Shown here: positions 7,648-64,000 of the stretch, one piece after another
Numbering within the stretch: the stretch's first letter is position 1
How the letters are laid out: every line of letters starts with the position of its first letter
NCBI GenBank assembly: GCA_028707535.1
Contig: JAQWAU010000001.1
Span: 1-64,000 of the forward strand
Direction of reading: 5' to 3'
DNA length: 64,000 bases
DNA from: Heliobacteriaceae bacterium
GTDB lineage: Bacteria > Bacillota > Desulfitobacteriia > Heliobacteriales > Heliobacteriaceae
Program-made: the position numbers and the translations under genes
The notes under the pieces: model-generated
Told to the model about the DNA's origin: nothing
Database searches by the model: none
The model's input: the letters and a program-made list of their open reading frames with translations, nothing else

Positions 7648-7715
7648 TCAGTTAAGGGCACCCTTTGATGATCGGCGCATATAATATGTGGTGGGATCGG
7701 GGGGAGGTGAACATT

Positions 7716-8750: not shown

Positions 8751-8771
8751 GCTTGCATTTTTCGGATAACC

Positions 8772-8814
8772 AGACTCCCTTTTTGGCAAAATAGCCGGGA
8801 CGGAGTCTTTTTTA
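8772..8814 (+). terminator. Intrinsic terminator after spoVK
   Basis: The stem AGACTCC/GGAGTCT, with inner pairing through CCC/GGG, is followed by a run of T. It separates spoVK from the dehydrogenase cassette. Confidence 0.8.
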
Positions 8815-8845
8815 TTTGATTAACGTGTCAAAGGGGGGGAAAATT

Positions 8846-9238
8846 GTGCCATACTTAAGCAGTTGGTCCACAGGGCAAATCCTCATCGCTTTTACTGCTG
8901 TGGCCTTTTTGTTGGTGACCATTCAGGTAACCTTGTTTCATTACCGCCAAAACTTTCGCCATTACGCCATGTGGGGACCGGTGATCGGGTTACCGCTGGC
9001 CGCTTTGGCCGGGTTAATGTTAACCTGGCAAAATACGCCTTTTTGGTATTGGGTGTTCCTGGTATTGCTCTGGGTAGAATTAGCCAGCGGGCTTGTAGGG
9101 TTTTATTTGCACAGCCGGGGCATAACCCAGCGGGTTGGCGGGTGGGGGATCAATAATGTTTTGATCGGTCCGCCGCCGGTATTACCTTTAATGGTTTCCG
9201 CCTTGGCCGTACTTGGCTTATTTGCTTTATATCTATAA
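8846..9238 (+). CDS. Four-helix membrane protein of a GMC dehydrogenase cassette
   Basis: Unrecognised 130-residue integral membrane protein with four predicted helices (about residues 8-30, 42-63, 70-95 and 108-130). The GTG start at 8846 has a GGGGGGG-rich site 6-12 bases upstream; an in-frame TTG at 8816 lies in the preceding terminator tail and is unlikely. Histidines near helix ends (FHY, RHY, LHSRG) could serve as heme or metal ligands, but that is only inference. The next gene begins 16 bases after its stop and encodes a gluconate-dehydrogenase subunit 3-like protein, with a GMC flavoprotein behind it. A role as membrane anchor or quinone-side electron acceptor is the simplest reading. 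Confidence 0.7.
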   Translation: MPYLSSWSTGQILIAFTAVAFLLVTIQVTLFHYRQNFRHYAMWGPVIGLPLAALAGLMLTWQNTPFWYWVFLVLLWVELASGLVGFYLHSRGITQRVGGWGINNVLIGPPPVLPLMVSALAVLGLFALYL

Positions 9239-9254
9239 AAGGGAGGCGGAAAAA

Positions 9255-9893
9255 ATGATGGTTGGCACCGTTTATCCCGGCTTCGATGTGATGGTGCAAA
9301 GTCCCCACTGGGACCGGAATACCCGGCATTTGATTGAAGCCAGGTTACAACCGCCAGGGCCTGCCCAGTTTTTTTCCCCACCGGAAATAGCCTTGTTGGA
9401 AGCGGTTTTGGGCCGGTTACTGGATGAACTTGATTCTACATTGTTACAGCGGGTAGCCGGACAAATTGATAGCTACTTGTTTAACAATCAACAAAACGGT
9501 GATCACAAATCTGGTTTACCACCAACGGGGGACTTGTTACGTAAAGGCCTGCATTTACTGGAAGCGAATGCCGTCCTGCTCTTCCAACGCCCTTTTCTCC
9601 AGTTAACTCCATTGGAAATGGATGAACTGCTGGGCAAGGTCCAACGGGGGGAAGTAAACTGGCAAGGGATTCCCCCGGGGGAATTCTTCCGGAAAATAAC
9701 CGGGATCGGGATCGACTTCTTTTTTTCCCAACCAGAAATTTGGTCGGAAATCGGTTTTGCCGGTCCGGCCTATCCCCGGGGTTACTATCGGCTGGAAACT
9801 GGACTAAAAGACCCCTGGGAACCAATATCAGACCCGGAAAGGGAAGATGCCCGGGTTGCCGCCGGATTAGGGCCGGCACGGAGGTTAGAATAA
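9255..9893 (+). CDS. Gluconate 2-dehydrogenase subunit 3-like protein
   Basis: A 212-residue protein resembling the small gamma subunit (subunit 3) family that partners GMC flavoprotein dehydrogenases. The recognisable part is FFSPPEIALLEAVLGRLL near residues 38-55 and the later segment VNWQGIPPGEFFRKI. The start is the ATG at 9255 after AAAGGGAGGCGG. No Tat or Sec signal is visible, unlike the periplasmic gamma subunits of proteobacteria, so the complex is probably cytoplasmic and facing the membrane. The stop abuts the GMC oxidoreductase ATG with no gap, indicating coupled translation. Confidence 0.72.
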   Translation: MMVGTVYPGFDVMVQSPHWDRNTRHLIEARLQPPGPAQFFSPPEIALLEAVLGRLLDELDSTLLQRVAGQIDSYLFNNQQNGDHKSGLPPTGDLLRKGLHLLEANAVLLFQRPFLQLTPLEMDELLGKVQRGEVNWQGIPPGEFFRKITGIGIDFFFSQPEIWSEIGFAGPAYPRGYYRLETGLKDPWEPISDPEREDARVAAGLGPARRLE

Positions 9894-11477
9894 ATGTCAC
9901 AATCAACAGATCTGCCGTGGGAATTACTGAACACCGAAGTGGATGTCATAATCATCGGTGCCGGGGCTACCGGGGGAGTGGTGGCTAGGGAGCTGGGCAC
10001 GGCCGGATTAAAGGTGGTATTAATGGAAGCGGGTCCCCATTGGGAAGTCAGCCGCGACTTTGTCAGTGATGAGCTGCATATGCGAAAAACAGCGTGGCAG
10101 GCCAGGCGGCTTACCGCCGGCAATGATCCGCCTGAATTAGGACATAACATTTCCGGTTTTGGGGTAGGGGGAGGAACGCTGCATTTTACCGCAGTGGTAC
10201 CCCGGTTTTTCCCTTCCGATTTTCAGCTGGAAACGCGTGAAGGGGTTGGTGCTGACTGGCCGGTTACCTATGAAGACCTGGTGCCTTATTGGCAGGCCTT
10301 GGAACGGGACTTGCCGGTTGCCGGACCGAAATATTATCCTTGGGGCGGCTTCCAAGGACCATATCCCTATCCGCAACGGGATCCGATAGCGGCAACCCAG
10401 CAGATTTTGCATATCGGGTGTGACAGACTTGGTATCCGTAGTGCCGGGGCGCCGCTCGCGATCTTGTCCGCACCTTATAACGACCGGCCCCCGTGCACCA
10501 ACCGTGGTTTTTGCGCCCAAGGATGTCTACCCAACGCCAAATTTTCCACCTTAATCCACCATATACCCCAGGCAATCAAAGCCGGCGTGGAATTACGAAC
10601 CGGTTGTATGGTCAATCGCGTGTTGTGCGGACCGGATGACCGCGTAGAAGGAATTTCTTTTTTGTTCAATGGCCAAGAATACCGGCAAAAGGCACGGGTT
10701 GTGGTAGTTTGCGCCTCGGCAATTGAAACCCCCAGGTTGCTCCTGATGTCGGCTAACGGCCGTCATCCCCAAGGGTTAGCTAATCGCAGCGGCCTGGTCG
10801 GCCGTTATTTTATGCTGCATTCCGGCCACGAAGTAATTGCCCGGTTTCCCTACGAAGTACTGCCTTACAAGGGAACCCCGATTACGATGACCACCCAGGA
10901 ATTCTACGAAACACCGGCCGACGGCTCCCGGGTCCGGGGGTTTAGTATTCACGCCCACGGTTCCCGGCCTTTGGCGTTTATGAGCGCAGTTTTCAAGGCC
11001 AAGCGGATTTGGGGAAAAGACCTCCGGGAAGTAGCCAGAGATTATAACTATTTCGCCCGGTTGACCTTAGTCGGGGAAGTACTGCCCAGTGCAAGCAACA
11101 CCATAACCTTATCAACAGAAAAAGATCGTTACGGACTGCCGGCCCCATTGGTTACCTTTTCCTACGGTGAAAACGATAAAAACGTAATCACGGCCGGAGT
11201 CCGGACTTGCAAACAAATTCTGGAAGCTGCCGGCGGCAGAGTCGAGTTTGTCAGCCCGGATACCTCGCACATGTTAGGGGGTTGCCGGATGGGTAGCGAC
11301 CCGCAAACATCGGTAGTGGATCAATGGGGCCGGAGTCATGACCACCCGAATTTGTTTATCGCCGATACCGCGTTATTTGTCACCTCCGGAGCCTCCAATC
11401 CGACGATCACCGCAATGGCCTTAGCCTGGCGTACCGCCGACTACATTAAAGAGGAATTCCGCCAGGGCAACCTTTAG
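9894..11477 (+). CDS. GMC family FAD-dependent oxidoreductase
   Basis: Flavoprotein of 527 residues. The N-terminal dinucleotide fold is VDVIIIGAGATGGVVAREL, and GFGVGGGTLHF and a C-terminal segment SHMLGGCRMG...NLFIADTALFVTSGASNPT complete the GMC pattern. The latter contains the active-site region, with His of SHML and Asn of SNPT as likely catalytic residues. A cysteine group CTNRGFCAQGC near residue 205 is typical of the gluconate/sorbitol dehydrogenase branch. It probably oxidises a polyol or sugar acid and passes electrons to the preceding two subunits; the substrate cannot be read from sequence. No cytochrome c gene is present. Confidence 0.85.
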   Translation: MSQSTDLPWELLNTEVDVIIIGAGATGGVVARELGTAGLKVVLMEAGPHWEVSRDFVSDELHMRKTAWQARRLTAGNDPPELGHNISGFGVGGGTLHFTAVVPRFFPSDFQLETREGVGADWPVTYEDLVPYWQALERDLPVAGPKYYPWGGFQGPYPYPQRDPIAATQQILHIGCDRLGIRSAGAPLAILSAPYNDRPPCTNRGFCAQGCLPNAKFSTLIHHIPQAIKAGVELRTGCMVNRVLCGPDDRVEGISFLFNGQEYRQKARVVVVCASAIETPRLLLMSANGRHPQGLANRSGLVGRYFMLHSGHEVIARFPYEVLPYKGTPITMTTQEFYETPADGSRVRGFSIHAHGSRPLAFMSAVFKAKRIWGKDLREVARDYNYFARLTLVGEVLPSASNTITLSTEKDRYGLPAPLVTFSYGENDKNVITAGVRTCKQILEAAGGRVEFVSPDTSHMLGGCRMGSDPQTSVVDQWGRSHDHPNLFIADTALFVTSGASNPTITAMALAWRTADYIKEEFRQGNL

Positions 11478-15311: not shown

Positions 15312-15812
15312 ATGACTCAGTATCTCGGTATGACCTATGATCTTGCTTTAATTATTGCCCTCATTGTCATGCTCATCGGGATCTTGGGTACGTTCGTTCC
15401 GGTAATTCCCGGTATCCCGCTGATTTTTGCGGCTATGGTCGGCTATGGCTTTACCGAAGGGTTCCAGTTGATGAGCCTACTTTTCTTAGGGGTTAACTTT
15501 TTGTTGGTCTTACTCGCGGTAATTCTGGACTACCTGGGCACCGCCTGGGGGGCCCGCCGGTTTGGCGCTACCCGTTCCGGAATATGGGGCGCTGTGGCCG
15601 GTGGACTAGTTGGTTTGGTAGTTTTAGGGCCGCTCGGCCTTTTCGCGGGTCCGTTTATTGGTGCGGTTGCCGGAGAACTAATGCAGGGCCGGACCTTGGA
15701 GCGGGCAATTGAGGCCGGCATCGGTACATTTCTGGGTGTGGCGGGTGCATCGCTGGTCCGGTTTATTTTGGCTTTAGGCATGACCGGTGCTTTCATCTGG
15801 CGAATATGGTAG
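15312..15812 (+). CDS. DUF456 membrane protein
   Basis: A 166-residue integral membrane protein of the DUF456 family. It has four to five hydrophobic helices and a glycine-rich core typical of the family, including VIPGIPLIF near residue 35 and LGPLGLFAGPFIGAVAGEL near residues 105-125. GGGGAGATTATT precedes the ATG. Function unknown. It lies 24 bases after ynbB and 49 bases before ddl on the same strand, so it may share a transcript with both. Confidence 0.8.
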   Translation: MTQYLGMTYDLALIIALIVMLIGILGTFVPVIPGIPLIFAAMVGYGFTEGFQLMSLLFLGVNFLLVLLAVILDYLGTAWGARRFGATRSGIWGAVAGGLVGLVVLGPLGLFAGPFIGAVAGELMQGRTLERAIEAGIGTFLGVAGASLVRFILALGMTGAFIWRIW

Positions 15813-15861
15813 GCATAACAATAAAAAGGAAACCAAATTAGGGCAGGGGAGGACCGGTTCC

Positions 15862-16959
15862 ATGAAAAAGACCATTGGGGTAATTTGTGGTGGGCGTTCC
15901 GGGGAACACGAGGTTTCCCTGGTTTCCGCCCAGGCAATTGTGGCCGCATTGGCACCGGAACAATACAGGGTAAAAACAATTGGCATCGATCAGCAGGGCC
16001 GGTGGTGGCTCGGCCCCGATGTCATTGCTAACTTGCAAACCGGCAAAGAACCTTATGGGGAGCAGGTGTTTTTTGTACCGGATCCCACGCAAGGTGGCCT
16101 GCTGCGGACCACCGGGTCCGGCTGGGAACCGGTAGCTATTGACTTATTTTTCCCGGTTCTCCACGGACCTAACGGGGAAGACGGCACTATTCAAGGACTC
16201 TTTGAATTGGGCAATGTACCTTATGCCGGTTGCGGTGTTCTCGCATCGGCCTGTGGCATGGACAAAGCAGTGACGAAAGAATTGTTCAACCAAAAGGGTT
16301 TACCCCAGGTGCCTTACCAGGTTTTTTTTCGGTCTGAATGGGAAGCAGACCCCATTAAGGTAATTACGGCAGTGGAACACCTTCCCGGTTATCCCTGTTT
16401 TGTGAAACCGGCAAATATGGGTTCCAGTGTCGGTATCGCGAAGGCAACCACGCAGGAGCAATTGCAGCGGGCATTTGCCGATGCGGTGCGTTACGACCGC
16501 AAGATTATCGTGGAGAAGGGGATTGACGCCCGGGAAATTGAAGTAAGTGTTTTAGGTAATGACCAGGCAATTGCTTCTTTGCCCGGCGAAATCGAACCAG
16601 GGGGAGAATTTTATGATTATGAAGCCAAGTATGTCGATACCCGCTCCCGGTTGTTGATTCCGGCCCCATTAAGTGAACCGGTGACCAGGCGGGTACAAGA
16701 CTTGGCCATCCGGGCATTTAACGCGGTGGATGGTTCCGGTTTATCCCGGGTGGATTTTTTCCTTGACCGGCAAACCGGGGAAGTATGGGTTAACGAAATC
16801 AATACTTTGCCAGGATTTACCAATATCAGTATGTATCCTAAACTTTGGGAGGCAACCGGGCTTTCCTACCGGGAATTATTGTCCCGGGTAATCACCTTGG
16901 GCTGGGAACGGTACGAGGAAAAACAACGTAATGCAACAAAAAGGCTGCCCCCGGTATAA
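15862..16959 (+). CDS. ddl: D-alanine--D-alanine ligase
   Basis: ATP-grasp ligase that forms the D-Ala-D-Ala dipeptide of peptidoglycan, 365 residues (DdlA-like length). Motifs: GGRSGEHEVSL at the N terminus, HGPNGEDGTIQG, CFVKPANMGSSVGI in the ATP-grasp core, and the Mg-binding end VNEINTLPGFT. The ATG at 15862 has GGGGAGGA about 12 bases upstream; an upstream in-frame ATG would start inside the DUF456 gene. A shared terminator separates it from lexA, which converges from the other side. Confidence 0.95.
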   Translation: MKKTIGVICGGRSGEHEVSLVSAQAIVAALAPEQYRVKTIGIDQQGRWWLGPDVIANLQTGKEPYGEQVFFVPDPTQGGLLRTTGSGWEPVAIDLFFPVLHGPNGEDGTIQGLFELGNVPYAGCGVLASACGMDKAVTKELFNQKGLPQVPYQVFFRSEWEADPIKVITAVEHLPGYPCFVKPANMGSSVGIAKATTQEQLQRAFADAVRYDRKIIVEKGIDAREIEVSVLGNDQAIASLPGEIEPGGEFYDYEAKYVDTRSRLLIPAPLSEPVTRRVQDLAIRAFNAVDGSGLSRVDFFLDRQTGEVWVNEINTLPGFTNISMYPKLWEATGLSYRELLSRVITLGWERYEEKQRNATKRLPPV

Positions 16960-16974
16960 AAACCGTGCCAAAAA

Positions 16975-17002
16975 AACGCCCTCCGAAAAACGGAGGGCGT
17001 TA
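16975..17002. terminator. Bidirectional terminator between ddl and lexA
   Basis: The stem AACGCCCTCCG with its exact complement flanks an AAAA loop, with A-run before and TTAATT after. It serves both converging genes. Confidence 0.85.
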
Positions 17003-17021
17003 ATTGCGTCAAACCCCTATA

Positions 17022-17636
17022 CTAACAGTTTAGCCGGCGTAAAATCGCAATGACTTTTCCTAAAATATTAACCTCTTTGATCAAAATCGGCTCCATAAAG
17101 CAATTTTCCGGTTGCAGCCGGTAATAGTCCTTTTCCTTAAAAAAGCGTTTAACAGTCATCTCGCCACCAAGTAAAGCAACCACGATATCGTCATTTTCAG
17201 CGAAATTCTGCATCACTGCTACTACCCGGTCACCATCAAAAATACCGGCGTCGACCATACTTTCCCCGTGGATATTTACCATAAACACCTGGTCATCACA
17301 ACGAACGAAGTCTTTGGGTAACGGAAAGGAACCTTGAATATTGTCGGTGGCCAAAATTGGTTTGCCTGCACTGATCCGCCCCAATATCGGTACATCAACG
17401 AGGTTTTGGCTATCTTCTTCGTCACCAACCAACACCTCAATTGCCCGGGGTTTTGACCGGTTGCGGCGGATAAACCCTAAGGACTCTAACCGAGTTAGGT
17501 AGCTATGGACGGTGGAACTAGAACTAAGACCAACCGCTTGGCCAATTTCCCTGACCGAGGGAGGATACCCACACCGCCGGATCTCCGCCCGGATAAAGTC
17601 AAGGATCAGCCTTTGACGTTCACTTAACTCTTCCAT
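17022..17636 (-). CDS. lexA: LexA repressor
   Basis: SOS repressor and autoprotease, 204 residues. The N-terminal winged helix is LSERQRLILDFI to RNRSKPRAIEVL. The self-cleavage Ala-Gly bond lies in GRISAGKP, the nucleophile Ser in GESMVDAG, and the general-base Lys in EMTVKRF. The ATG at 17636 begins the conserved helix; the open frame continues 29 codons upstream but is not homologous. A TATAAT-like -10 lies at 17689-17694. I could not find a clear CGAAC-N4-GTTCG box upstream, so self-repression cannot be shown. A divergent gene starts 166 bases away. Confidence 0.95.
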   Translation of the reverse strand: MEELSERQRLILDFIRAEIRRCGYPPSVREIGQAVGLSSSSTVHSYLTRLESLGFIRRNRSKPRAIEVLVGDEEDSQNLVDVPILGRISAGKPILATDNIQGSFPLPKDFVRCDDQVFMVNIHGESMVDAGIFDGDRVVAVMQNFAENDDIVVALLGGEMTVKRFFKEKDYYRLQPENCFMEPILIKEVNILGKVIAILRRLNC

Positions 17637-17802
17637 ACCACCACACACCACTACCAGACACCCCCGGGATTGAACGATTTCCGCCAACATTATAGCATAT
17701 TCTGCTTGTTTAATCATAGGCAATCCATAGTCTAACGATAAAACTGCGCTCTTCGGGTAATCTCACCGGTAACCGGAAATAAAAAACAGGAGGCCAAAAA
17801 CT

Positions 17803-18210
17803 ATGCCTGGCCCGTCGGCATCCCGTAAATTATTATCAGGCAAAATCATCTCACCGGATGGTAAAGTGATCCCGGTGTTTAAGCAGGCTGTGGGTAAGGG
17901 GACGTTAATTACCGTGGAAGTGGCCGATACCTTTTGGACCCGGCTGCGGGGCCTGTTGGGCCGGTCACACCTGCCCCCAGGGTACGCGTTATTACTGGCG
18001 CCATGTAATCAAATCCATACCTTAGGTATGCGGTTTCCCCTCGATGTGCTCTATTTGGACCAGGCAAATGTCATCTTGGAAATGGAAATCATGGTCAAGC
18101 CCGGCCGGATTCAACGGGCTCGACGGCAGGCAGCGAAGGTGGTCGAATTTCAGGGTAGCACCTTAAATCCGGGGGCAATCGCCACCGGTAACCGTTTGTT
18201 TTTTGAATGA
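17803..18210 (+). CDS. DUF192 family protein
   Basis: A 135-residue protein of the DUF192 family. The conserved core runs from VEVADTFWTRLRGLLGR near residue 45 to the small C-terminal beta domain, with the family signature CNQIHTLGMRFPLDVLYLD near residues 75-95. AGGAGG lies 9 bases before the ATG. The family is widespread and of unknown role; many members are secreted, but no signal peptide is visible here. It is followed by the glucan phosphorylase gene after 60 bases. Confidence 0.85.
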   Translation: MPGPSASRKLLSGKIISPDGKVIPVFKQAVGKGTLITVEVADTFWTRLRGLLGRSHLPPGYALLLAPCNQIHTLGMRFPLDVLYLDQANVILEMEIMVKPGRIQRARRQAAKVVEFQGSTLNPGAIATGNRLFFE

Positions 18211-18270
18211 GTTTCCGAATAATGCACATGCTAAAGTACAGTACTGATTCCTTGAGCGGGAGATGAGTTT

Positions 18271-19983
18271 TTGAACAATAATTCTCAACAACCTTTGCCG
18301 CGGATCGCCTATTTTTGCATGGAATACGGATTGCACGAAAAATTACCGATATATGCCGGGGGTCTCGGCATTTTAGCCGGAGATCACTTAAAAGCTGCCC
18401 AGGACAACCGACTACCCGTAGTCGGCATCGGCATTCTATGGCGGCAGGATTATACAGAACAGTTTATTGGTCAAGACGGACGCCCGTATGATGTGTTTCC
18501 GACGTATGATTTCCAAGATATAAAAGAGACTGGTATTACGGTAAAGGTACAGGTCAAGGATGCCGAGGTGACCTGTAAAGTGCACCTAGTCGACCAGTAT
18601 GGTAATGCCCCCCTGTATCTATTAGATACCAGTTTTCCCGGCAGCAAACACCCTTGGATCACCAGCCGGCTTTACGGTGGCCAGGCCGAGGACCGGATCG
18701 CGGCGGAAATCGTTTTAGGGATCGGTGGTATTCGGGCGTTACGGGCCCTAGGGATGCCGGTAGATGTTTACCACTTTAACGAAGGCCACGCCGTCTTGGC
18801 CGGTTTAGAACTAATTAGGGAAAAAATAGCCGGTGGAATGTCTTTTCACGCTGCCTGGGAGGCTGCCCGGCAAGAGGTGGTATTCACCACCCATACACCA
18901 ATCGCCGCCGGGAACGAAATTCACGAGATTGAATTACTCCAACAAATGGCTGCTAATAATGGCCTAACCTACGAGCAAATGAAGGAGATTGGCGGCGATC
19001 CGTTTAACATGACGGTCGCTGCTTTACGGCTATCCCGGATTGCCAACGGGGTATCCAAGGCCCACGGCGCAACCGCAAACCGGATGTGGCACCAAGTCGA
19101 AAAAGCTGCTCCGATCATCGCCATTACCAACGGTGTGCATGTCGATACCTGGCAAGCAAGAAACATCCATCAGAATTATAAAAACAATGGTGACCTTTGG
19201 GCAGCACACCAAACAAACAAAAAGCACCTGCTTGAGTTCATCGCCATGCACACTAAAGCCCGGTTAAATCCTGATGCTTTGTTAGTTGGTTTCGCCCGCC
19301 GGGCAGCGCCATACAAGCGAAGCGACCTGATTTTTCACACCACTGACGTAATCGAACCCTTGTTGAACAAAGGAAAACTCCAACTGGTGTTTTCCGGCAA
19401 GGCCCATCCGTATGACGGTATCGGCAAAGACATCATCAAACAGTTGGTACTTATGGACCGAAAATACGCGGACAACGTAACCTTTATTCAGAACTATAAT
19501 ATGGAAGTCGCCCGGCTGATGGTTCAGGGGTGTGACATCTGGCTGAACAATCCCCGGCGACCAATGGAAGCCAGCGGCACCTCCGGCATGAAGGCTGCCT
19601 TAAATGGGGTGCTAAACCTAAGTATCGTCGATGGCTGGGTCGGTGAGGGGATTCAACACCACGTCAGCGGTTGGCTGCTTAATCCGGCAATCAAGGAAGA
19701 TGCCGCAGAGTGGGAGCAAGACGCTGAAGACTTAAAAGAACTCTACCACGTGTTAATCAACGAAGTAATTCCAACTTATTACCAAGGTCGGGATGCTTGG
19801 ATCACGATGATGCGGGCGGCAATTACCATGGCCTTGGAAAGGTTCTCTTCCGACCGGATGCTCCGGGAATATTATGAACAAGTTTACCAAAAAACCCCCG
19901 GTTTCCAGACACAGGGTCCGGTAATAAGCGACTATTCGGTGGAAACCCGTCCGGGACCGGTTGATTATCAACCGGTAACTTAA
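18271..19983 (+). CDS. glgP: Alpha-glucan phosphorylase (GT35, short form)
   Basis: Releases glucose-1-phosphate from alpha-1,4-glucan; 570 residues, the shorter thermophile/archaeal type rather than the 800-residue glycogen phosphorylase. The PLP-lysine motif is EASGTSGMKAALNG near residue 440. FCMEYGLHEKLPIYAGGLG at the N terminus and FNEGHAV near residue 172 are family landmarks. The TTG start follows GCGGGAGATGAG at 10 bases. It stands alone between DUF192 and a terminator, with no other glycogen gene visible in the window. Confidence 0.92.
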   Translation: MNNNSQQPLPRIAYFCMEYGLHEKLPIYAGGLGILAGDHLKAAQDNRLPVVGIGILWRQDYTEQFIGQDGRPYDVFPTYDFQDIKETGITVKVQVKDAEVTCKVHLVDQYGNAPLYLLDTSFPGSKHPWITSRLYGGQAEDRIAAEIVLGIGGIRALRALGMPVDVYHFNEGHAVLAGLELIREKIAGGMSFHAAWEAARQEVVFTTHTPIAAGNEIHEIELLQQMAANNGLTYEQMKEIGGDPFNMTVAALRLSRIANGVSKAHGATANRMWHQVEKAAPIIAITNGVHVDTWQARNIHQNYKNNGDLWAAHQTNKKHLLEFIAMHTKARLNPDALLVGFARRAAPYKRSDLIFHTTDVIEPLLNKGKLQLVFSGKAHPYDGIGKDIIKQLVLMDRKYADNVTFIQNYNMEVARLMVQGCDIWLNNPRRPMEASGTSGMKAALNGVLNLSIVDGWVGEGIQHHVSGWLLNPAIKEDAAEWEQDAEDLKELYHVLINEVIPTYYQGRDAWITMMRAAITMALERFSSDRMLREYYEQVYQKTPGFQTQGPVISDYSVETRPGPVDYQPVT

Positions 19984-19996
19984 AAAGTCATCCAAC

Positions 19997-20024
19997 AAGG
20001 GGTTAAGGCCCCTTTTCCTTTTTG
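19997..20024 (+). terminator. Probable terminator after glgP
   Basis: AAGGGG/CCCCTT stem with a TTAAGG loop, followed by TTCCTTTTTG. Short but well placed, 13 bases after the stop. Confidence 0.65.
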
Positions 20025-51282: not shown

Positions 51283-52707
51283 TTATCCCGGGGCCATGGC
51301 CATTACAACCAGCCGGGTGAACTCAGCCAATTTCGGCGGTGGAATAGTCCGCAGGTCCAGCCACAAAGCATCTGTCACTACTCTCCCAAGTACCGGCACT
51401 TCCCCGGTCCGCAAACGTTCGGCGAGGGCATGTGCCCCGCCTTGCGGCGGGCGCACGACAACACACCAACTGGGCAACTCAACTTCGGGTAGAGCGCCAC
51501 CACCCACTTGGGACATACCTGGCTGTACCTGAATCTGCCATGCCGGATGGGTTTCCGTCAAAATCTGAGCAACTTCCCGAGCCCTGGCCTCAATCCGACC
51601 AGCCGGTTGAAGCAGAAAGGACAAAGTGGGAATATGGCTAACCACCTGTTGGGGATGCCGGTAAAGTTGCAGCGTTGCCTCCAAGGCAGCCAGGGTCAAT
51701 TTATCTACCCGTAACGCCCGGTTAAGGGGATGGCCGGCCAGTTGGGCAATCAAATCCCGCCGACCGACAATAATGCCGCTTTGGGGACCCCCAAGCAGTT
51801 TATCACCACTGAAAGTAACCAGATCGATTCCTGCCCGGACAACTGATTGCACACTGGGTTCTCCCCAAAAATCACCGGAGCCAGATTGTTCATAAAGCAC
51901 GCCACTGCCCAAATCTTCCACTACCAATAAACCACGTTGCCGGGCTAAAGAGACAAGTTCCTCCCGGGCAACCGCAGCCGTGAAACCGACTATCCGGAAA
52001 TTGCTAGGGTGAACCTTCATGAGCAGCCGGGTGTTTTCCCCGATCGCCGCTGCGTAATCGGCCAAACGGGTCTTGTTGGTCGTACCAACTTCAACGAGCT
52101 GTGCCCCGCTTAAGGCCATAACATCAGGAATCCGGAAAGCCCCACCGATCTCGACTAATTCACCCCGGGATACAATAACCTGGTGTTCCCGGGCAAGAAC
52201 AGTTAAGATTAAAAGCACCGCCGCCGCATTGTTATTAACTACTAAGGCATCATCCGCCCCGGTTAAAATTTGGAGTAATTCCCGCACATGGTCGTAACGC
52301 CGGCCGCGTTTACCGGTGTTCAGGTTTAGTTCGAGGTTACAGTATCCACCGGCAACTGCCTCAATTGCGGCAAGCGCTTCCGGGGCAAGTGGGGCCCGGC
52401 CCAAATTAGTATGTAACACAACCCCGGTGGCATTAAAGACAGGCCGCAGTCTGGCCTGATCCGCTTTAGCCAGTGCCTCCCGAACCGCCACACAAATGCC
52501 GGCAAAGGATAAATCCACCTTATCCCCGGCCACAAGCGGACCGGCGGCAATAATTGCCTGCCGCAACTCGGCCAAATGCCGTTGAATCTCCTGCAACAAA
52601 CGCTCCCGGCCGTACTTTTCCGCCAGTTCCGCCATACCGGGGTAAGTTAATACTTGATTTATAGCGGGAATCTTCCGTAAACAGGCCGCCAATTCTACCT
52701 CAAGCAA
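51283..52707 (-). CDS. selA: L-seryl-tRNA(Sec) selenium transferase
   Basis: PLP enzyme that converts seryl-tRNA(Sec) to selenocysteinyl-tRNA; 474 residues. The PLP-lysine lies in TFSGDKLLGGPQSG near residue 288, with NNNAAAVLL near residue 155. The start is the TTG at 52707 with GGGAGG ahead. Its presence implies the organism can make selenoproteins; selB, selC and selD are not in this window and no Sec TGA is evident in the genes here. Confidence 0.94.
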   Translation of the reverse strand: MLEVELAACLRKIPAINQVLTYPGMAELAEKYGRERLLQEIQRHLAELRQAIIAAGPLVAGDKVDLSFAGICVAVREALAKADQARLRPVFNATGVVLHTNLGRAPLAPEALAAIEAVAGGYCNLELNLNTGKRGRRYDHVRELLQILTGADDALVVNNNAAAVLLILTVLAREHQVIVSRGELVEIGGAFRIPDVMALSGAQLVEVGTTNKTRLADYAAAIGENTRLLMKVHPSNFRIVGFTAAVAREELVSLARQRGLLVVEDLGSGVLYEQSGSGDFWGEPSVQSVVRAGIDLVTFSGDKLLGGPQSGIIVGRRDLIAQLAGHPLNRALRVDKLTLAALEATLQLYRHPQQVVSHIPTLSFLLQPAGRIEARAREVAQILTETHPAWQIQVQPGMSQVGGGALPEVELPSWCVVVRPPQGGAHALAERLRTGEVPVLGRVVTDALWLDLRTIPPPKLAEFTRLVVMAMAPG

Positions 52708-52779
52708 AACCGGTCCTCCCTTTTCCCTCAACATTTTCCGGCGGCGCTTGTAAGCACCACCGGTGTTGATGCTTAAAGT

Positions 52780-52953
52780 TTATTCTTCCGGATTAGGTGC
52801 ATCTACCGGACAAACTTCGGCACAGGCACCACAATCGATGCATTTTTCCGGATCAATGTGGTATTTGTCCTCACCTTCACTAATCGCATCTGTTGGACAT
52901 TCCGGAGCACAAGCACCACAGGAAATACAGTCATCATTGATTATGTGGGTCAA
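52780..52953 (-). CDS. 4Fe-4S ferredoxin (internal start)
   Basis: Same frame as the previous entry, from TTG at 52953 with GGAGGTGAATTTC directly before it. The 57-residue product has two CxxCxxCxxxCP motifs (CISCGACAPECP, CIDCGACAEVCP), the standard Clostridial-type ferredoxin. A small electron carrier; donor and acceptor unknown. I think this is expressed independently of the GIY-YIG part. Confidence 0.8.
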   Translation of the reverse strand: MTHIINDDCISCGACAPECPTDAISEGEDKYHIDPEKCIDCGACAEVCPVDAPNPEE

Positions 52954-53256
52954 GAAATTCACCTCCACCGCTAATTTATCCATTTGTGGCACCACCTTAT
53001 ACGGAAAAAACTGCTTAATTAATTGCAGCTTAGCCTTGCGGGGCATTTTCTTGATCGCCGCTTCCCGGCGTAAAGCATTACAGCGGTCAGCAACAGATTC
53101 CTGGTATACCAGGTGAACCGGTAGCCGCGAACGAGTATATTTACTGGCTTTACCTTGCTGATGTTGTTTAATCCGCCATTCTACCCGATTTGTCCACCCG
53201 GTATATAAAGTACCATCTCCACACAACAAGATATATACGTAAGTGCCGGAGGACAT
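52780..53256 (-). CDS. GIY-YIG endonuclease-like domain running into a ferredoxin domain
   Basis: A single open frame of 158 codons. Residues 1-80 match the YhbQ/YazA (UPF0213) GIY-YIG family: TYVYILLCGDGTLYTGWTN and the later Arg/Glu residues. Residues 100-158 are a 2[4Fe-4S] ferredoxin. There is no stop between them, although both domains normally stand alone. An internal GGAGGTG-TTG (52951) gives a separate ferredoxin start. The fusion could be real read-through or a lost stop; see next entry. Confidence 0.75.
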   Translation of the reverse strand: MSSGTYVYILLCGDGTLYTGWTNRVEWRIKQHQQGKASKYTRSRLPVHLVYQESVADRCNALRREAAIKKMPRKAKLQLIKQFFPYKVVPQMDKLAVEVNFLTHIINDDCISCGACAPECPTDAISEGEDKYHIDPEKCIDCGACAEVCPVDAPNPEE

Positions 53257-56758: not shown

Positions 56759-57673
56759 TCATACAAGCTGGGGACGGGGCAACAGGCCTGCTTGTTCGGC
56801 AATCGCGGGAACGATTTCCTCCCAGTTGACCGCCATAATATGTACCCCTTTAACTCCCGGGATTTGCCTGATGTGCTTAATCTGTTCGACACAGATCTTG
56901 ACGCCTTCTTCCTTAGGATTCGCCGCCTTTTTCATCCGCTCGATCAATTCGTCAGCTACCAACATCCCGGCCACATTTTTTTGCATATAAGCCGCCGCCC
57001 GCCAGGACTTTAACGGCATCAGCCCGGCCATGATATAGGCCTTTTCGTGCAAACCCCGTTCCCTGACCTTTGCCATAAAGAGCTCAAAACGCTCCATATC
57101 CAAGATACACTGGGTCTGCACAAATTCCGCCCCGGCGTTAATCTTTTTTTCTAAGCGGAGCACCCGCCATTCAAACGGATCAGCAAATGGGTTAGCCACA
57201 CAGCCGATGAAAAACCGCGGTTCATGGTCTTTAATTTCTTCTCCGCAAAGAAATTGACGTTCGTCCCGCATGTTTTTGACGGTTTGAATCAACTGAATGG
57301 AATCAATATCAAAAACATTCTTGCTGGTGCCGTGATTACCGAAAGATTGGTGGTCACCGGATAAACACAATACGTTCTTAACCCCTAAAGAATACGCCCC
57401 CAACAAGTCGCTTTGAATGCCGATCCGGTTACGGTCCCGGCAAGTCATCTGCATGACCGGTTCCCCGCCGGTCTGCAATACATGCACTGCAGCGGCAATC
57501 GAAGATAGCCGGACAATCGCTGTTTGATTGTCGGTCAGGTTCACACCATCCACATACTCATTCAACATAGCGGCATGGTGCCGAACCACTTCCCCGTCGG
57601 CCGATTTTGGGGGGCCAACTTCACCGGTAACGACGAATTGGCCGGCTTCAAACATTTTTTTTAGTTTGCTCAT
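56759..57673 (-). CDS. metF: Methylenetetrahydrofolate reductase MetF
   Basis: TIM-barrel enzyme reducing 5,10-methylene-THF to 5-methyl-THF; 304 residues. VTGEVGPPKSADGE near the start holds a catalytic Glu, and MTCRDRNRIGIQSDL near residue 100 is the flavin/pterin region. Its ATG overlaps the metV stop (ATGA), so both are made in step. In acetogens of the Moorella group MetF works with MetV and Hdr/Mvh proteins rather than directly with NAD(P)H. A strong terminator closes the operon after it. Confidence 0.93.
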   Translation of the reverse strand: MSKLKKMFEAGQFVVTGEVGPPKSADGEVVRHHAAMLNEYVDGVNLTDNQTAIVRLSSIAAAVHVLQTGGEPVMQMTCRDRNRIGIQSDLLGAYSLGVKNVLCLSGDHQSFGNHGTSKNVFDIDSIQLIQTVKNMRDERQFLCGEEIKDHEPRFFIGCVANPFADPFEWRVLRLEKKINAGAEFVQTQCILDMERFELFMAKVRERGLHEKAYIMAGLMPLKSWRAAAYMQKNVAGMLVADELIERMKKAANPKEEGVKICVEQIKHIRQIPGVKGVHIMAVNWEEIVPAIAEQAGLLPRPQLV

Positions 57674-58338
57674 AAGGCCACATCCTCCTTAACCACCCGG
57701 CGCGGTCCCCCATCACGCGCTTTACTCCAGTCTTTAACCGGCTCAATGGTAAGGAGCGCTTCCAGTTTCCCTAATTTCGCCATTTTGTCGTAAATCAGTT
57801 GCCAGGCACAGGGGGTGGTTGGTGAAATCTCGCACTTCCCGTTCTGGGAACCACCACACGGTCCGTTTAGAATCGATTTGGAACAACGGATAATCGGGCA
57901 AATACCCCCGGTTTTATGCAGTACACAGTCCCCACAAAGGCCACAGCGTTCTTCCCAAACACCATGTTCCAAGGTTCCGCCGATCAGCTTGGTATTTAAA
58001 GCCGGGATGGTCCACTGGTCGAACCGTTCCGCCACATATTGCACACCTACCCCGCAGGCCATGGAAATGATCAGGTCGATATCCGGGGTGACGATTTTAG
58101 CCATCGCTTCCAAATATTCCTGGTCACACTGGCGGGTAGCGGTGTATTCTACCGTTTCCAGGGACCGGCCCGTTTGGGCCCGTAAGAGCCGCAGAGCAGC
58201 AGCCAAAACACCTACTTCTTTTTCCCCACCCGCCAAACAGACAGTCACACACATGGAACAACCCACGATCAGTACCTTATTGGCCTCTTTGATCCGTTCG
58301 GCAATTTCCACCAAGGGTTTTTGTTCAGCCACAATCAT
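57670..58338 (-). CDS. metV: Methylenetetrahydrofolate reductase subunit MetV
   Basis: Zinc- and iron-sulfur-type partner of MetF; 222 residues. N-terminal cysteines (VGCSMCVTVC) and the cysteine-rich segment CGLCGDCVLHKTGG, C..PIIRC, GPCGGS near residues 130-160 fit the MetV C-terminal domain. It relays electrons to the MetF flavin. Gene order mvhD-metV-metF agrees with the Moorella-type complex. Start 9 bases from the mvhD end; RBS GGTGACTTG. Confidence 0.9.
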   Translation of the reverse strand: MIVAEQKPLVEIAERIKEANKVLIVGCSMCVTVCLAGGEKEVGVLAAALRLLRAQTGRSLETVEYTATRQCDQEYLEAMAKIVTPDIDLIISMACGVGVQYVAERFDQWTIPALNTKLIGGTLEHGVWEERCGLCGDCVLHKTGGICPIIRCSKSILNGPCGGSQNGKCEISPTTPCAWQLIYDKMAKLGKLEALLTIEPVKDWSKARDGGPRRVVKEDVAL

Positions 58339-58346
58339 TGATCAAG

Positions 58347-58799
58347 TCACCTCTTTTCCTCGGTAAGCCTGACTGCCGGCTTGATGTTTTCCGGATTAAC
58401 CGGGCTGGGACCGAGGCTGCGGATCCTGGCGGTAAACTCCCGGGCCACCTCCGCAAACCGGGACCCCATAGAACTGGAAAGATTGTACATCTCTAACCGC
58501 TGTCCACCAATACCTATTTCATCCAGTAACCGTTTCAGCTGGTGTACCCGCTGCTTTGCCCGGATATTTCCTTTGAGAAAATGGCAGTCACCCTCCACAC
58601 AGGCAGCCACATATACCCCATCGGCCCCTTCTTCAAACGCTCTCAGTAAAATCAGGGGATCTATTTTACCCGAACAAGGCTGTTCAACCATCCGAACATT
58701 AGCCGGGTACTGTAAACGCAGCGAACCGGCCAAATCGGCAGCCGCATAGGCACAGTAATAGCAACAGAAAGCAACAATCTTGGGGTGCCAGTCGTTCAT
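58347..58799 (-). CDS. mvhD: MvhD/FrhD-type hydrogenase-heterodisulfide reductase connector
   Basis: Small [2Fe-2S] delta subunit, 150 residues. AFCCYYCAYAAADLAG and VEQPCSGKIDP and EGADGVYVAACVEGDCHFLKGN carry the cluster cysteines. It docks HdrA onto its electron source. All positions are Cys; no Sec is used, unlike some VhuD. Between hdrA and metV, 12 and 8 bases apart. Confidence 0.92.
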   Translation of the reverse strand: MNDWHPKIVAFCCYYCAYAAADLAGSLRLQYPANVRMVEQPCSGKIDPLILLRAFEEGADGVYVAACVEGDCHFLKGNIRAKQRVHQLKRLLDEIGIGGQRLEMYNLSSSMGSRFAEVAREFTARIRSLGPSPVNPENIKPAVRLTEEKR

Positions 58800-58811: not shown

Positions 58812-61800
58812 CTAACCCAAACCACTGACCTTGGCCAACATCTGCTCATCCGTATAGTGCTGCAATTGAATCGCTTTCCCCGGACATTCACCGCAACAGG
58901 TCCCACAACCATGACACTGTACGGCTTCAATCATCGCCTTGTGGTCGGCGCCAATTTGCGGAACCCCGTATGGACACACCCGGACACAGGTCAAACAGGC
59001 CGCACATTTAGCTGGATCCACCGTCGCCACAACCCCGCCAACCATCAGTTGACCGGCCGCCAAAATCGTTACCGCCCGGGCAACCGCCCCTTGCGCCTGA
59101 CTAATTGCTTCACCGATAGATTTCGGTGCATGAGCAGAGCCACAGAGAAACAGACCGGCAGAAGGGAAATCAATCGGTCCCAGTTTGGCATGGTTCTCAA
59201 CAAAGAACTTGTCTTCATTAAGCGGTAGCTTAAGTACACCCGCTAATTCCTCGATGCCTTGCGGCGCCACCGTAGCGGTAGCCAGCACCACCTGGTCGGC
59301 CGGCAGCTTGGTCATGACCCCTTCGGCGGCATCCTGAAACTCGACAGTAATCGGACTTAAGTCCCCACCCTTACCGCCGGTGACAATCACCGGCTGACCA
59401 TGGGCAACCGGGTCATACGGGAAAAAGAGCACACCCCGCTCCCGGGCCGACTTGTAGTATTTCTCCAGGAATCCGTAAGTCCGGATGTCCCGGTATAAAA
59501 CATAAATTTCCGCTGCCGGGTTCAGTTCCTTCAGCCGGAGAGCATTTTTTACCGACTGCTGGCAACAAGTACGGGAACAATACGCCCTTTCACTATCCCG
59601 GGAACCGACACACTGAATAAACACCACCCGGCGTTTACCGGCCCATTTAGCCGGTTCTTTCACCAAAGCCTTTTCCAATTGGAGATTGGTCAACACTGCC
59701 CCCCCGGTGGGGTAATTCGCCGGCGGCAGTTCCCGGCCCCCGGTGGCAATGATTACCACCCCAAATTCCAGCCATACGTTCGCCGGCTCCCCGGTGTCCG
59801 GTTGTTCGCTGACCACCTGGGCATTAAAGTGACCCTGATGACCACCAAAATCAGTTAGCTTCGCCCCGGTAAAAACTTTGATTTTCTGCTCAGCCATCAC
59901 CTGCCGGACCAGGTCTTGCCCGAAAGCCTGCAGGTTCTGCCCGTCAATCGACCGGTAAAGCTTTCGGATTAGCCCACCCAAAACCGGCTCCTTTTCCACA
60001 ATAAAAGACTCGAAACCTTGTTCGGCCAGGTTGAGTGCTGCGGTCATCCCGGCAACTCCGCCGCCAATGATTAAAGCCTTCGGAATTACCGGTACCGGCA
60101 GGAGTTGCAGTGGTTGGTGGTGTTTTACCTTTTCCACCGCCATACGCACTAAATCTTTGGCTTTTTCCGTCGCCCCAACCGGATCTTCACGGTGTACCCA
60201 GGAACACTGGTCCCGGATATTAGCCATTTCAAACAGAAACTGGTTTAGGCCTGCTTCCCGCAAAGCCTCCCGGAATAAAAGCTGGTGGGTACGAATGGTA
60301 CAGGAAGCAACTACGATCCGGTTTAACCCTTGTTCTTGAGCGATTTCTTTTATTTTTTTAACTGTATCCTGGGAACAGGTATACAAGAACTCTTCCGTAT
60401 AGATAACCCCAGGCAAATCCTTGGCAAAAGCAGCTACTGCCGGAACATCGACAACCCCGGCAATATTGCTGCCACAACGGCAAACAAAAACCCCCACTTT
60501 TGGCACCTGCCCGGAAACATCAATTTCCGGGGGGTAAACTTTAGGTGTAATCATGGTATTGCGCACCGGGGCCAGCAAGGAGCCGGCTGTTGCCGCCGCC
60601 GCCGCCGCGTTCATTACCGTTTCCGGAATGTCCCTTGGACCCTGAAAACCCCCAGCAACAAAAATTCCCTTACGGCTTGTCTCTGTAGGGTTAAACGGCC
60701 CTGTAGCGGCAAAACCGTATTCATTCAAGTCAAAATCGAGAATTTCCGCCAAGGCAGCCCCCCGCTTTGGCGGCTGTACCCCGGTAGCCAAAACGACCAA
60801 GTCAAATTCTTCGGTTATGGCCTCTCCTTGGGCATCAATATAGGTAATCAAAAGATTTTTCGTCCGGGGCACCTGTTTAACCGCCGAAACCATCGACCGG
60901 ACATACCGGACACCACCAAGTTTAGCTGCCTCGACATATTTGTCGAAGTTTTTACCGTAGGACCGGAGATCCAGGTAAAAAATAACCGGCTGAATGTCAG
61001 GAGCGTGTTCGCGGGCAATTAATGCTTCCTTGGTCGCATACATACAACAAATCGAAGAGCAATACTCCACACCATGCCCGCAATCACGAGAGCCGACACA
61101 TTGGATAAAGGCTACCCGGTGAGGAGGGGTGCCGTCCGAAGGCCGGATGACCTGCCCTGCCGTATGTCCGGTCGAAGATAACATCCGTTCGAAGTCCATG
61201 GCAGTTACCACGTTGGGGTATCTGCCGTAGCCAAACTCGCCCTTGGTGGTAGCCTTGATCAGATCGAATCCGGGCGCCAAAATGACGGCCCCGACCTGAA
61301 GGTCAAGCACCTCGTCCGGCATTTCGGGTTCGATTGCCTTCTTTTTGCAGGCCTCAATACATTGAAAACATTCGCAACAGACCCCACAATTTAAACAGCG
61401 CTCAGCTTCGGCGATTGCCGTTGCTTGATCCCACGGCTGGTAAACTTCCCGAAAATCCTGATTCCTTTCCCGGGCCGGGGCATGTTCCACCGCGTGTCGA
61501 TCACAAGTACTGTAAATAGTATCGGTGGGGGGCGGCAATTTTGGCGACCGGTCCCACGAACGGCCGGCAGCCGGATCTTCACCATTGATAAACCGTTCAA
61601 TAGAAACCGCAACCCGGTGGGCACTACCCACCGCTTCTACCACAGAACGGGCGCCATGCGCCAGGTCACCACAGGTAAACAACCACGGAATGTTTGTTTG
61701 CAAGGTCAGCGGCTCTACTTGCGGCACCCCGTTAGGCAGCATAACCAGGCCTTCCTGAAGCCCCTGCAACCGGGCCTCCTGACCAATGGAAACAAGAACG

Positions 61801-63290
61801 ATATCGGCGGCAAAATTGCGGGTTACACTTTCATCGTACTTAAGGCCCCGCCGCCCGTTTTCGTCAAAAACACTGCGGCAATGACAAGCCTGTAAGCCTG
61901 TCACCCGCCCGTTTCCCCCGGTAAAATACCGTGGGGCCCAGGAGTTGTGTAAAGTCACCCCTTCAGCCAAGGCTTCTTCCACTTCCCAAGGCCAAGCCGG
62001 CATTTCTTCCCGGGTCCGCCGGTATACAATATGCACTTCCTGGGCCCCTTTACGTAAAGCGGTCCGGGCAGTGTCGACAGCGACATTCCCCCCACCGATC
62101 ACCACTACTTTTTTGCCGTTTACAGCCGGTTCTTGTCCTAACTGAACTTGCCGCAAATAGTCGACGCCACCATGAATACCGGCCTGTTCGCTGCCCTCCA
62201 AAGCGGTCAGCTGGCTGTGGGGCAACCCGGCAGCCAACAAAACAGCGGTATAACCCTGTTCCCGCAAATCCCGGAGGGAAAAATCCCGGCCCAAGGCCAC
62301 ATTAGTTTTTAACTCAATCCCCAAACTGAGAATATACCCAATTTCCCGTTCGATCAGTTCTTCCGGCAGGCGAAAGCGGGGAATCCCGTAGCGCAGCATT
62401 CCTCCAGGCTGGGGGTTTTGTTCAAAAACCGTTACCTTAAACCCTCGCCGCGTCAGGTCTTGGGCTGCGGTCAACCCCCCGGGACCAGCCCCGATAACCG
62501 CAATTTTCGCGGACTGCTGTTCTACGCCGGCCGGCAAAGACTGCCCAGCACCCAGTTCCGGCCAGCCAAAATCCGCCGCCGCCCTTTTCAAAGCGCCAAT
62601 CGCTACCGGAGCGTCAATTTCGCCCCGGTTGCACTCTTCCTCACAAGGGTGATGACATACCCGGCCGCAAATATGGGCAAACGGCATCTCCCGCAGAATA
62701 ACAGTTAAGGCTTCCTTAAACTTTCCCGCCGCCAACAAGGCAATATAACCCTGCGCATTACACCCGGCAGGACAGGTGCTCCGGCAAGGGGGTATCCCCA
62801 GTTTTTCAATTAAGTATTTATTTGGCACCGCTTGGGGAAACGCCTTATAAATTGCCTTACGTTCATCTTTGTGCTCATTGAAGGCGTTTTTAACCCGCAC
62901 CGGGCAAACCTGTTCACAATCAGCACAAGCAGTACATTCGATAATGTCAACATAACGGGCTTTTTTCCGGAGGGTGATGGTAAAGTCGCCCGCTACGCCG
63001 GCTACCTTTTCAATCTGGGCCTGCGTATGCAAACGAATATTTGGGTGGCTGTTGGTATCTGTCATGGTTGGTCCTAATAAACACATGGCACACTCGTTGG
63101 TAGGAAAGGTCTTATCCAACTGGGCCATTTTCCCCCCAATTGAAGGACCATCGATCACCATGTGCACAAGATAACCACCGTTGGCCAAATCCAAGGCCGA
63201 ACGCATCCCGGCGATGCCGCCGCCAACTACCATAACCGACCCCACCAGGTTATTTGTGCCCGCCGGATTATATTTATTTGTCACGGGCAT
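58812..63290 (-). CDS. hdrA: Heterodisulfide reductase subunit A-like protein with GltD-type insertion, tandem HdrA
   Basis: A 1492-residue flavin/iron-sulfur protein. Order: HdrA N-terminal FAD motif (VVGGGIAGMRSAL, residue 22) and CTACADCEQVCP (119); GltD/NADPH-oxidoreductase block about 163-640 (CRSTCPAGCNAQGYI, AVIGAGPGGLTAA at 265, VVVIGGGNVAVDTA at 396); rest of HdrA to about 985 (CVGSRDCGHG, FVCRCGSN); second HdrA (IIGGGVAGMTAALNLAEQG near 1112) and C-terminal ferredoxins (CAACLTCVRVCP, CHGCGTCCGECP). It is the flavin core of the MTHFR complex. Moorella HdrA is shorter as I recall; the insertion may take NAD(P)H directly. Confidence 0.9.
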   Translation of the reverse strand: MPVTNKYNPAGTNNLVGSVMVVGGGIAGMRSALDLANGGYLVHMVIDGPSIGGKMAQLDKTFPTNECAMCLLGPTMTDTNSHPNIRLHTQAQIEKVAGVAGDFTITLRKKARYVDIIECTACADCEQVCPVRVKNAFNEHKDERKAIYKAFPQAVPNKYLIEKLGIPPCRSTCPAGCNAQGYIALLAAGKFKEALTVILREMPFAHICGRVCHHPCEEECNRGEIDAPVAIGALKRAAADFGWPELGAGQSLPAGVEQQSAKIAVIGAGPGGLTAAQDLTRRGFKVTVFEQNPQPGGMLRYGIPRFRLPEELIEREIGYILSLGIELKTNVALGRDFSLRDLREQGYTAVLLAAGLPHSQLTALEGSEQAGIHGGVDYLRQVQLGQEPAVNGKKVVVIGGGNVAVDTARTALRKGAQEVHIVYRRTREEMPAWPWEVEEALAEGVTLHNSWAPRYFTGGNGRVTGLQACHCRSVFDENGRRGLKYDESVTRNFAADIVLVSIGQEARLQGLQEGLVMLPNGVPQVEPLTLQTNIPWLFTCGDLAHGARSVVEAVGSAHRVAVSIERFINGEDPAAGRSWDRSPKLPPPTDTIYSTCDRHAVEHAPARERNQDFREVYQPWDQATAIAEAERCLNCGVCCECFQCIEACKKKAIEPEMPDEVLDLQVGAVILAPGFDLIKATTKGEFGYGRYPNVVTAMDFERMLSSTGHTAGQVIRPSDGTPPHRVAFIQCVGSRDCGHGVEYCSSICCMYATKEALIAREHAPDIQPVIFYLDLRSYGKNFDKYVEAAKLGGVRYVRSMVSAVKQVPRTKNLLITYIDAQGEAITEEFDLVVLATGVQPPKRGAALAEILDFDLNEYGFAATGPFNPTETSRKGIFVAGGFQGPRDIPETVMNAAAAAATAGSLLAPVRNTMITPKVYPPEIDVSGQVPKVGVFVCRCGSNIAGVVDVPAVAAFAKDLPGVIYTEEFLYTCSQDTVKKIKEIAQEQGLNRIVVASCTIRTHQLLFREALREAGLNQFLFEMANIRDQCSWVHREDPVGATEKAKDLVRMAVEKVKHHQPLQLLPVPVIPKALIIGGGVAGMTAALNLAEQGFESFIVEKEPVLGGLIRKLYRSIDGQNLQAFGQDLVRQVMAEQKIKVFTGAKLTDFGGHQGHFNAQVVSEQPDTGEPANVWLEFGVVIIATGGRELPPANYPTGGAVLTNLQLEKALVKEPAKWAGKRRVVFIQCVGSRDSERAYCSRTCCQQSVKNALRLKELNPAAEIYVLYRDIRTYGFLEKYYKSARERGVLFFPYDPVAHGQPVIVTGGKGGDLSPITVEFQDAAEGVMTKLPADQVVLATATVAPQGIEELAGVLKLPLNEDKFFVENHAKLGPIDFPSAGLFLCGSAHAPKSIGEAISQAQGAVARAVTILAAGQLMVGGVVATVDPAKCAACLTCVRVCPYGVPQIGADHKAMIEAVQCHGCGTCCGECPGKAIQLQHYTDEQMLAKVSGLG

Positions 63291-63313: not shown

Positions 63314-64000
63314 TCAGATTAATCTTTTTTGGCGTAACAGCGGCACCGGATCGACCAAATGTTTAGCCCACCAGTCATCCTGATTGATCCCCATGGCCAA
63401 CGCCATCAATTCCGTTATGTAAAACACCGGCAAAGCAGCCGGACCGGCATTTTGCCTGGTATCTAAGTTTGCCATACACATCGGACAAGCAGTAACCAAA
63501 GCTTCAGCCCCTGCCTCCCGGGCGTGATCGACCAAATTACTGACCAAAGCAACCGCCAGATCTGTTTTTGTCAGGGCCAAACTCCCGCCGCAACAATCTG
63601 TCTGGTATGACCAGTCCGTTACTCCCGCCCCAAGTCTGATTAGAATCCGGGCCAGCGCCTCCGGCTGTTCGGGATCGTCAAAAGCCACAACCTCACCGGG
63701 CCGCACCAAATAACATCCATAATAAGGCGCCAGACACAAACCGGCCAGAGGGCGGGTAACCTTTTGCCGGAGCGAATTAAGGTGATCCTTTTGCTGAAAT
63801 AATTCCAACGGGTGCCGTACCATAATGCTGCCCTGGTAAGCATGTCCGGTGATTTCCTTCAGGTCCTGAATAATCTCCCGGATGGCACCCCGCTTAGCCT
63901 GGTAATCAACCAATTTTAAATTTTGATAACAGGCAGCACAAGGGACCAGCAAATCATCCCCTTGCTGTTCGGCCAATACTAGGTTGCGTAACGGTAATGC
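63314..64000 (-). CDS. hdrB: Heterodisulfide reductase subunit B-like protein (5' end outside window)
   Basis: 228 residues are visible; the N-terminal CCG half runs off the edge (frame open at 64000). The second CCG domain shows LLVPCAACYQNLK, LAPYYGCYLVRPG, TDCCGGSLALTKTDL and TACPMCMANLD, the non-cubane [4Fe-4S] ligands. It passes electrons in the MetFV-Hdr complex. 23 bases from hdrA. hdrC is expected beyond the edge. Confidence 0.92.
   Translation of the reverse strand, partial: ALPLRNLVLAEQQGDDLLVPCAACYQNLKLVDYQAKRGAIREIIQDLKEITGHAYQGSIMVRHPLELFQQKDHLNSLRQKVTRPLAGLCLAPYYGCYLVRPGEVVAFDDPEQPEALARILIRLGAGVTDWSYQTDCCGGSLALTKTDLAVALVSNLVDHAREAGAEALVTACPMCMANLDTRQNAGPAALPVFYITELMALAMGINQDDWWAKHLVDPVPLLRQKRLI

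Follow-up and report, generated by a model that had tools for sequence, protein, structure and literature searches.

How methylene-tetrahydrofolate (methylene-THF) reduction is coupled to energy conservation is an open question in acetogens, and one gene of a Heliobacteriaceae bacterium raises the related question of what a GltD-type oxidoreductase module does inside an HdrA subunit. The window analyzed here is the 64,000-nucleotide stretch covering positions 1 to 64,000 of contig JAQWAU010000001.1, and its hdrA gene (58812 to 63290, start codon ATG; all window features given below lie on the minus strand) encodes a protein of 1492 amino acids (aa) with the order HdrA1(N)-GltD-HdrA1(C)-HdrA2. 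This HdrA very probably serves as a subunit in a methylene-THF reductase of type IV (the Moorella type), HdrCBA-MvhD-MetVF, in which the GltD module would be the port for NAD(P)H, with NADPH as the predicted substrate.

In the 1492-aa protein, Pfam and NCBIfam models placed Fer4_20 at residues 167 to 241 and Pyr_redox_2 at 262 to 556, with HdrA models flanking them on both sides, and the GltD-type model PRK12771 matched residues 129 to 655 with 486 bits. The solved HdrA of Methanothermococcus (5odc) served as the reference for the insertion point. In phmmer alignments of the first HdrA, residues 49 to 163 corresponded to positions 176 to 290 of chain 5odc_A and residues 638 to 852 to positions 293 to 509; because the alignment stops at 290 and resumes at 293, the GltD module sits between residues that are neighbors in the HdrA fold. 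The insert separates the two cluster motifs of the "inserted ferredoxin," the region with which methanogen HdrA handles ferredoxin. The N-terminal half of the first HdrA (residues 17 to 163, 62802 to 63242), aligned with 5odc_A up to residue 290, contains the flavin adenine dinucleotide (FAD) motif VGGGIAG at 22 to 28 and half of the ferredoxin (C119, C122, C125, and C129, each Cys present in at least 98% of homologues). The GltD-like core follows (residues 164 to 575, 61566 to 62801; PF14691 and PF07992, alignments with NfnL, GltD, and StnC, and a Foldseek match to 9bov_A with E = 6e-51), bearing the Fe-S residues C169, C173, C208, C212, C216, and C220, the FAD motif AVIGAGPGGL at 264 to 273, and the NAD(P) motif VIGGGNVAVD at 397 to 406. 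The C-terminal half of the first HdrA (residues 638 to 905, 60576 to 61379), aligned with 5odc_A from residue 293, holds the other half of the inserted ferredoxin (C638, C641, C644, and C648) and a thioredoxin reductase (TrxR)-like FAD domain.

The second HdrA (residues 928 to 1492, 58815 to 60509) was also defined by alignment to 5odc_A, residues 929 to 1105 matching chain positions 3 to 179 and residues 1347 to 1491 positions 502 to 649. It has an N-terminal Fe-S domain, a TrxR-like FAD domain, and a C-terminal 2[4Fe-4S] ferredoxin and lacks the inserted ferredoxin, whereas the first HdrA has neither the N-terminal Fe-S domain nor the C-terminal ferredoxin. The two parts are complementary, and the description of the second as another copy of the first, given in the first-pass annotation, did not hold. 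Its layout of a GltD-like module within the first HdrA followed by another HdrA was confirmed by the domain models, the 5odc_A alignment, and structure prediction, and so were its three flavin sites and several [4Fe-4S] clusters: three FAD motifs were found (22 to 28, 264 to 273, and 1072 to 1082), and the cysteines suggest eight or nine clusters, with a tentative cluster assignment. An AlphaFold model of residues 14 to 912 built from 29 sequences had a mean predicted local distance difference test (pLDDT) score of 87.7 and a predicted template modeling (pTM) score of 0.82. In Foldseek searches with this model, the insert resembled the NfnABC and StnC chains and the remainder archaeal HdrA, and 8rwn_A was matched across the insert gap with a target TM score of 0.95. 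Chance or misassembly was ruled out by the identical layout in 102 other aligned full-length homologues.

The module has retained the residues expected of a working NAD(P)H oxidoreductase. All features of a GltD/NfnL-like module (Fer4_20, FAD GxGxxG, and NAD(P) GxGxxA) were present, which disposes of the possibility that the GltD block had lost its FAD or nucleotide-binding residues. Conservation across 104 aligned rows was 96 to 100% for the FAD glycines, the GGGNVA.D motif for NAD(P), and all but a few of the Fe-S cysteines; two rows (L053 and L063), later recognized as wrong-strand reading frames and excluded from the trees, explain most of the missing 2%. C208 was kept in 85% of the rows, and C177 was not conserved. 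The incomplete conservation of the ligand position C208 would fit an insert left over for structure or regulation and devoid of redox activity, but the residues for FAD and NAD(P) and most of those for Fe-S binding hardly vary among about 100 homologues from many phyla and the Moorella homologue is active (PMC9430772), so that this explanation is highly improbable. The Glu/Lys pair near the FAD that marks bifurcating HdrA (E356 and K409 in M. thermolithotrophicus) was found in both HdrA parts, as E701 (100% of homologues) and K754 (98%) in the first and E1206 (94%) and K1248 (91%) in the second; several homologues have lost the second pair.

The GltD module is circularly permuted relative to GltD and NfnL, since the segment that opens those proteins closes the module here. 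The RCLxC segment was not found N-terminal to the core and lies after it instead, in residues 596 to 637 (61380 to 61505, ending in AEAERCLNCGV). A family profile of these residues found residues 15 to 53 of the NfnL from the same genome (E = 3e-15) and residues 12 to 51 of Escherichia coli GltD (E = 5e-13), and PreT weakly; the best of 2000 shuffled proteins reached 4.8 bits. The same order, with RCLxC after the core, was seen in alignments of StnC and the large chain of NfnABC (8oh5 and 9bov), the best structural match of the GltD block; StnC differs in that the block is fused to a NuoG-like part and not to HdrA. The permutation would place both ends of the module at its Fe-S cluster, which would fit insertion into a ferredoxin loop. 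Its description for the GltD module inserted in HdrA appears to be new.

The architecture itself is not new, contrary to what the first-pass annotation implied, and has been described in Moorella and in archaea (PMC9430772, PMC8760232, and PMC12054007). It is found in HdrA of the methylene-THF reductase from Moorella thermoacetica, which was shown to be the NADH-oxidizing subunit of that enzyme (PMC9430772 and PMC8760232); the heterologously produced protein is the site of NADH oxidation (PMC8760232), and an NADH:benzyl viologen activity of 190 U/mg is quoted for it in a 2022 paper (PMC9430772). One homologue, L095, has the length (1487 aa), mass (162.76 kDa), and residues E696, K750, E1204, and K1246 published for the M. 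thermoacetica HdrA; it carries the motif CLE discussed below and is taken to be the same protein or nearly so. The window protein shares with the Moorella HdrA (MetVF-HdrABC-MvhD) the domain order, a similar length (1492 versus 1487 aa), the E/K pairs in both HdrA parts, and the gene order acsE-hdrC-hdrB-hdrA-mvhD-metV-metF, with identities to L095 of about 53% in GltD and about 63% in the second HdrA. In methane-metabolizing archaea, the GltD-inserted HdrA, termed type III (PMC12054007, 2025), likewise has GltD inside the HdrA ferredoxin domain; as set apart by the text of that paper, the archaeal insert lies in an HdrA of type I, and HdrA with a double TrxR-like part forms a type II of its own, whereas the bacterial form combines both. 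The HdrA of Sporomusa ovata is also MetVF linked with two TrxR-like domains but lacks the GltD module (PMC9430772).

The cofactor was predicted from the point where the second Rossmann beta strand of the module ends. Residues 423 to 425, which correspond to the 2'-phosphate contact region of GltD-type enzymes, are Y423-R424-R425 in the window protein (62016 to 62024), in place of the CLE of the Moorella-like homologue. YRR was found at this site in 53 of 102 sequences and Glu at 425 in the other 49, mostly as CLE. The NADPH enzymes NfnL, StnC, and E. coli GltD, used to calibrate the motif, have YRR, and E. coli PreT, which uses NADH (PMC7332683), has A-R-E with Glu at the motif position. Because the window protein carries YRR despite its membership in the CLE subfamily, NADPH is its predicted substrate, in contrast to the NADH of the Moorella enzyme; where NAD(P)H had been left undivided in the first-pass annotation, the sequence thus favors NADPH. 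The distinction of a CLE (NADH-type) and a YRR (NADPH-type) form of the permuted module appears to be new. The motif GxGxxA, used in the literature as an NADP discriminator, was discarded, the Moorella-like NADH enzyme having GGGNVA too. The same enzyme could also take NADH, or both cofactors, as in Moorella, with YRR not decisive: at positions other than the motif, the module clusters with the Moorella-like subfamily, the Moorella enzyme takes NADH, and the Nfn of the genome could equilibrate the NADH and NADPH pools. However, residues 423 to 425 separated the NADPH from the NADH controls tried, and this alternative is considered rather unlikely.

In a GltD tree without the motif columns, the window protein fell inside the CLE clade (support 99), where the sole other YRR member was L111. 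Because of this grouping, its YRR would have arisen by substitution or been regained, and a module swap as its origin was excluded. A similar case was L174, from the same class as the window protein, with a GltD 66% identical to that of a CLE protein. One contig (G152:C42; L155) carries two full-length GltD-HdrA genes in tandem (5937 to 10352 and 15611 to 20017), one with YRR and one with CLE, whose GltD parts are 68% identical. The motif label required 13 changes on the HdrA-only tree, compared to 5 on the GltD tree. Family f14 lay within a Bacillota clade on the HdrA tree (support 100), and keeping the other Bacillota together without f14 was rejected by the approximately unbiased test (p-AU 0.0006), while its GltD was not nested in Bacillota and a single clade was rejected (p-AU 0.015), on quick trees and with groups named after the trees were seen; these results are suggestive of a GltD module swap in f14. 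The cofactor motif and the module thus appear to have switched repeatedly. It is slightly more likely than not that type IV methylene-THF reductases comprise NADPH and NADH forms determined by three residues of a permuted GltD cassette, that this cassette has both mutated back and forth and moved whole between HdrA hosts, and that the window protein is an NADPH form derived from an NADH form.

The gene set of a type IV (Hdr-type) methylene-THF reductase, hdrCBA, mvhD, metV, and metF, is complete at the locus, and GltD is inserted in the first TrxR-like/ferredoxin part of HdrA as in the Moorella subtype. Downstream of hdrA lie MvhD (FlpD, 150 aa, 58347 to 58799, PF02662, 1.5e-48), MetV (222 aa, 57670 to 58338, PF12225, 3e-36), and MetF (304 aa, 56759 to 57673, PF02219, 1.1e-41). 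Upstream on the contig are HdrB (63314 to 64000, PF02754; truncated at the window edge and 284 aa long on the contig), HdrC, AcsE, AcsD, CooC, and AcsC, the last five named from their translations and the conserved order in related loci; HdrC was called from its position, Cys motifs, and homologous open reading frames adjoining HdrB in related loci. The same gene order is known in Moorella thermoacetica (PMC6895022 and PMC5736913). A scan for promoters and terminators gave no more candidates than shuffled sequence. The acs genes (L008:8865-11077) stop at AcsC and a CooC-like protein and are not followed by acsA and acsB, unlike in Moorella; a CODH-like (Prismane) frame is located on a separate contig, C22. 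The genome also encodes NfnAB, NiFe hydrogenases, UbiA-family proteins, and NuoF-like proteins. Four molybdopterin oxidoreductase frames (L167 to L170) each contain one in-frame TGA, consistent with selenocysteine, and a SelA-like protein is encoded in the window (51283 to 52734). In a 158-aa frame (52780 to 53256), a GIY-YIG-like protein continues directly into a ferredoxin of the 2[4Fe-4S] type; this could reflect a fusion or two genes that no stop codon separates.

In the proposed mechanism, NAD(P)H would donate a hydride to the FAD of the permuted GltD module, whose two ends would connect through its own Fe-S clusters to both halves of the inserted ferredoxin, and the ferredoxin-electron port of methanogen HdrA would become a pyridine-nucleotide port. 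We infer an electron path from the GltD clusters to the first HdrA flavin, on to the second HdrA, MvhD, and HdrBC, and then to MetV and MetF, where methylene-THF would be reduced or methyl-THF oxidized; for a homologue, methylene-THF reduction by MetF has been demonstrated by others. A 593-aa fusion (L151:4010-5791, minus strand, in G031) of a CLE-type permuted GltD with the MetV C-terminal domain (DUF5981) supports transfer of electrons between modules of this kind and MetV. Matches like this fusion occurred in three more genomes (G073, G111, and G147). Because both HdrA flavins retain the bifurcation-linked Glu/Lys pair, a further carrier, probably menaquinone, is likely to be coupled to the reaction, although bifurcation or confurcation has not been demonstrated for the Moorella complex either (PMC6895022 and PMC8760232). 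The module could also run in reverse in the cell, methyl-THF oxidation together with menaquinone driving NAD(P)+ reduction in a methylotrophic or syntrophic acetate-oxidizing lifestyle. Such a scheme was proposed for M. thermoacetica on methanol (PMC13391211) and the enzyme should be reversible, but the surrounding acs genes serve both directions; this reading is considered less likely than not.

The UbiA-family genes and Nfn of the genome count towards an NAD(P)H-linked type IV reductase. Several points weigh against it. The motif calibration relies on few characterized enzymes; UbiA-family matches are no proof of menaquinone synthesis; and L095 was equated with the M. thermoacetica protein from numbers, not by name. 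The proposal of a direct pyridine-nucleotide entry remains the best reading and is experimentally backed in the Moorella homologue, but NADH-dependent methylene-THF reduction by the Moorella complex was not observed in vitro, nor was ferredoxin confirmed as its partner (PMC8760232), so that the overall reaction is putative.

A scan of genome contigs yielded 80 loci, almost all of them full length, in Bacillota, Chloroflexota, Thermodesulfobacteriota, Nitrospirota, Planctomycetota, Acidobacteriota, and further groups. A survey of the window's phylum covered 399 genomes and counted MetV loci that had, no more than 9 kb away on their own strand, an HdrA match in which GltD was clearly present or absent; 41 of 55 had the GltD form by this rule (G034 among them being doubtful) and 14 lacked it, with one additional locus (G046) left unclassified. 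The insert is thus common and not universal among MetV-linked HdrAs, as the Sporomusa ovata protein also illustrates, and the possibility that it is a general feature of MetFV HdrA is excluded. Twelve GltD-HdrA frames in this survey had no MetV nearby. Such a gene without MetVF, at L052, is accompanied by EtfAB, MvhD, HdrBC, an Fe-S oxidoreductase, a Flx-like NAD-binding flavoprotein, and a GltD-like protein encoded separately. At the threshold used, this HdrA had no match in the eight other genomes sampled from family f1, home of the source genome, and the hdrA cluster may have been acquired or lost widely in this family.

Cells keep NADPH more reduced than NADH by about 90 mV (PMC10482914). 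If about half of these enzymes do use NADPH, the available energy and the possible coupling partner would change. Simple kinetics could address the cofactor question, given the two motif classes and the tandem genes whose motifs differ, and this testable NADPH/NADH split is the most useful addition to the published work.

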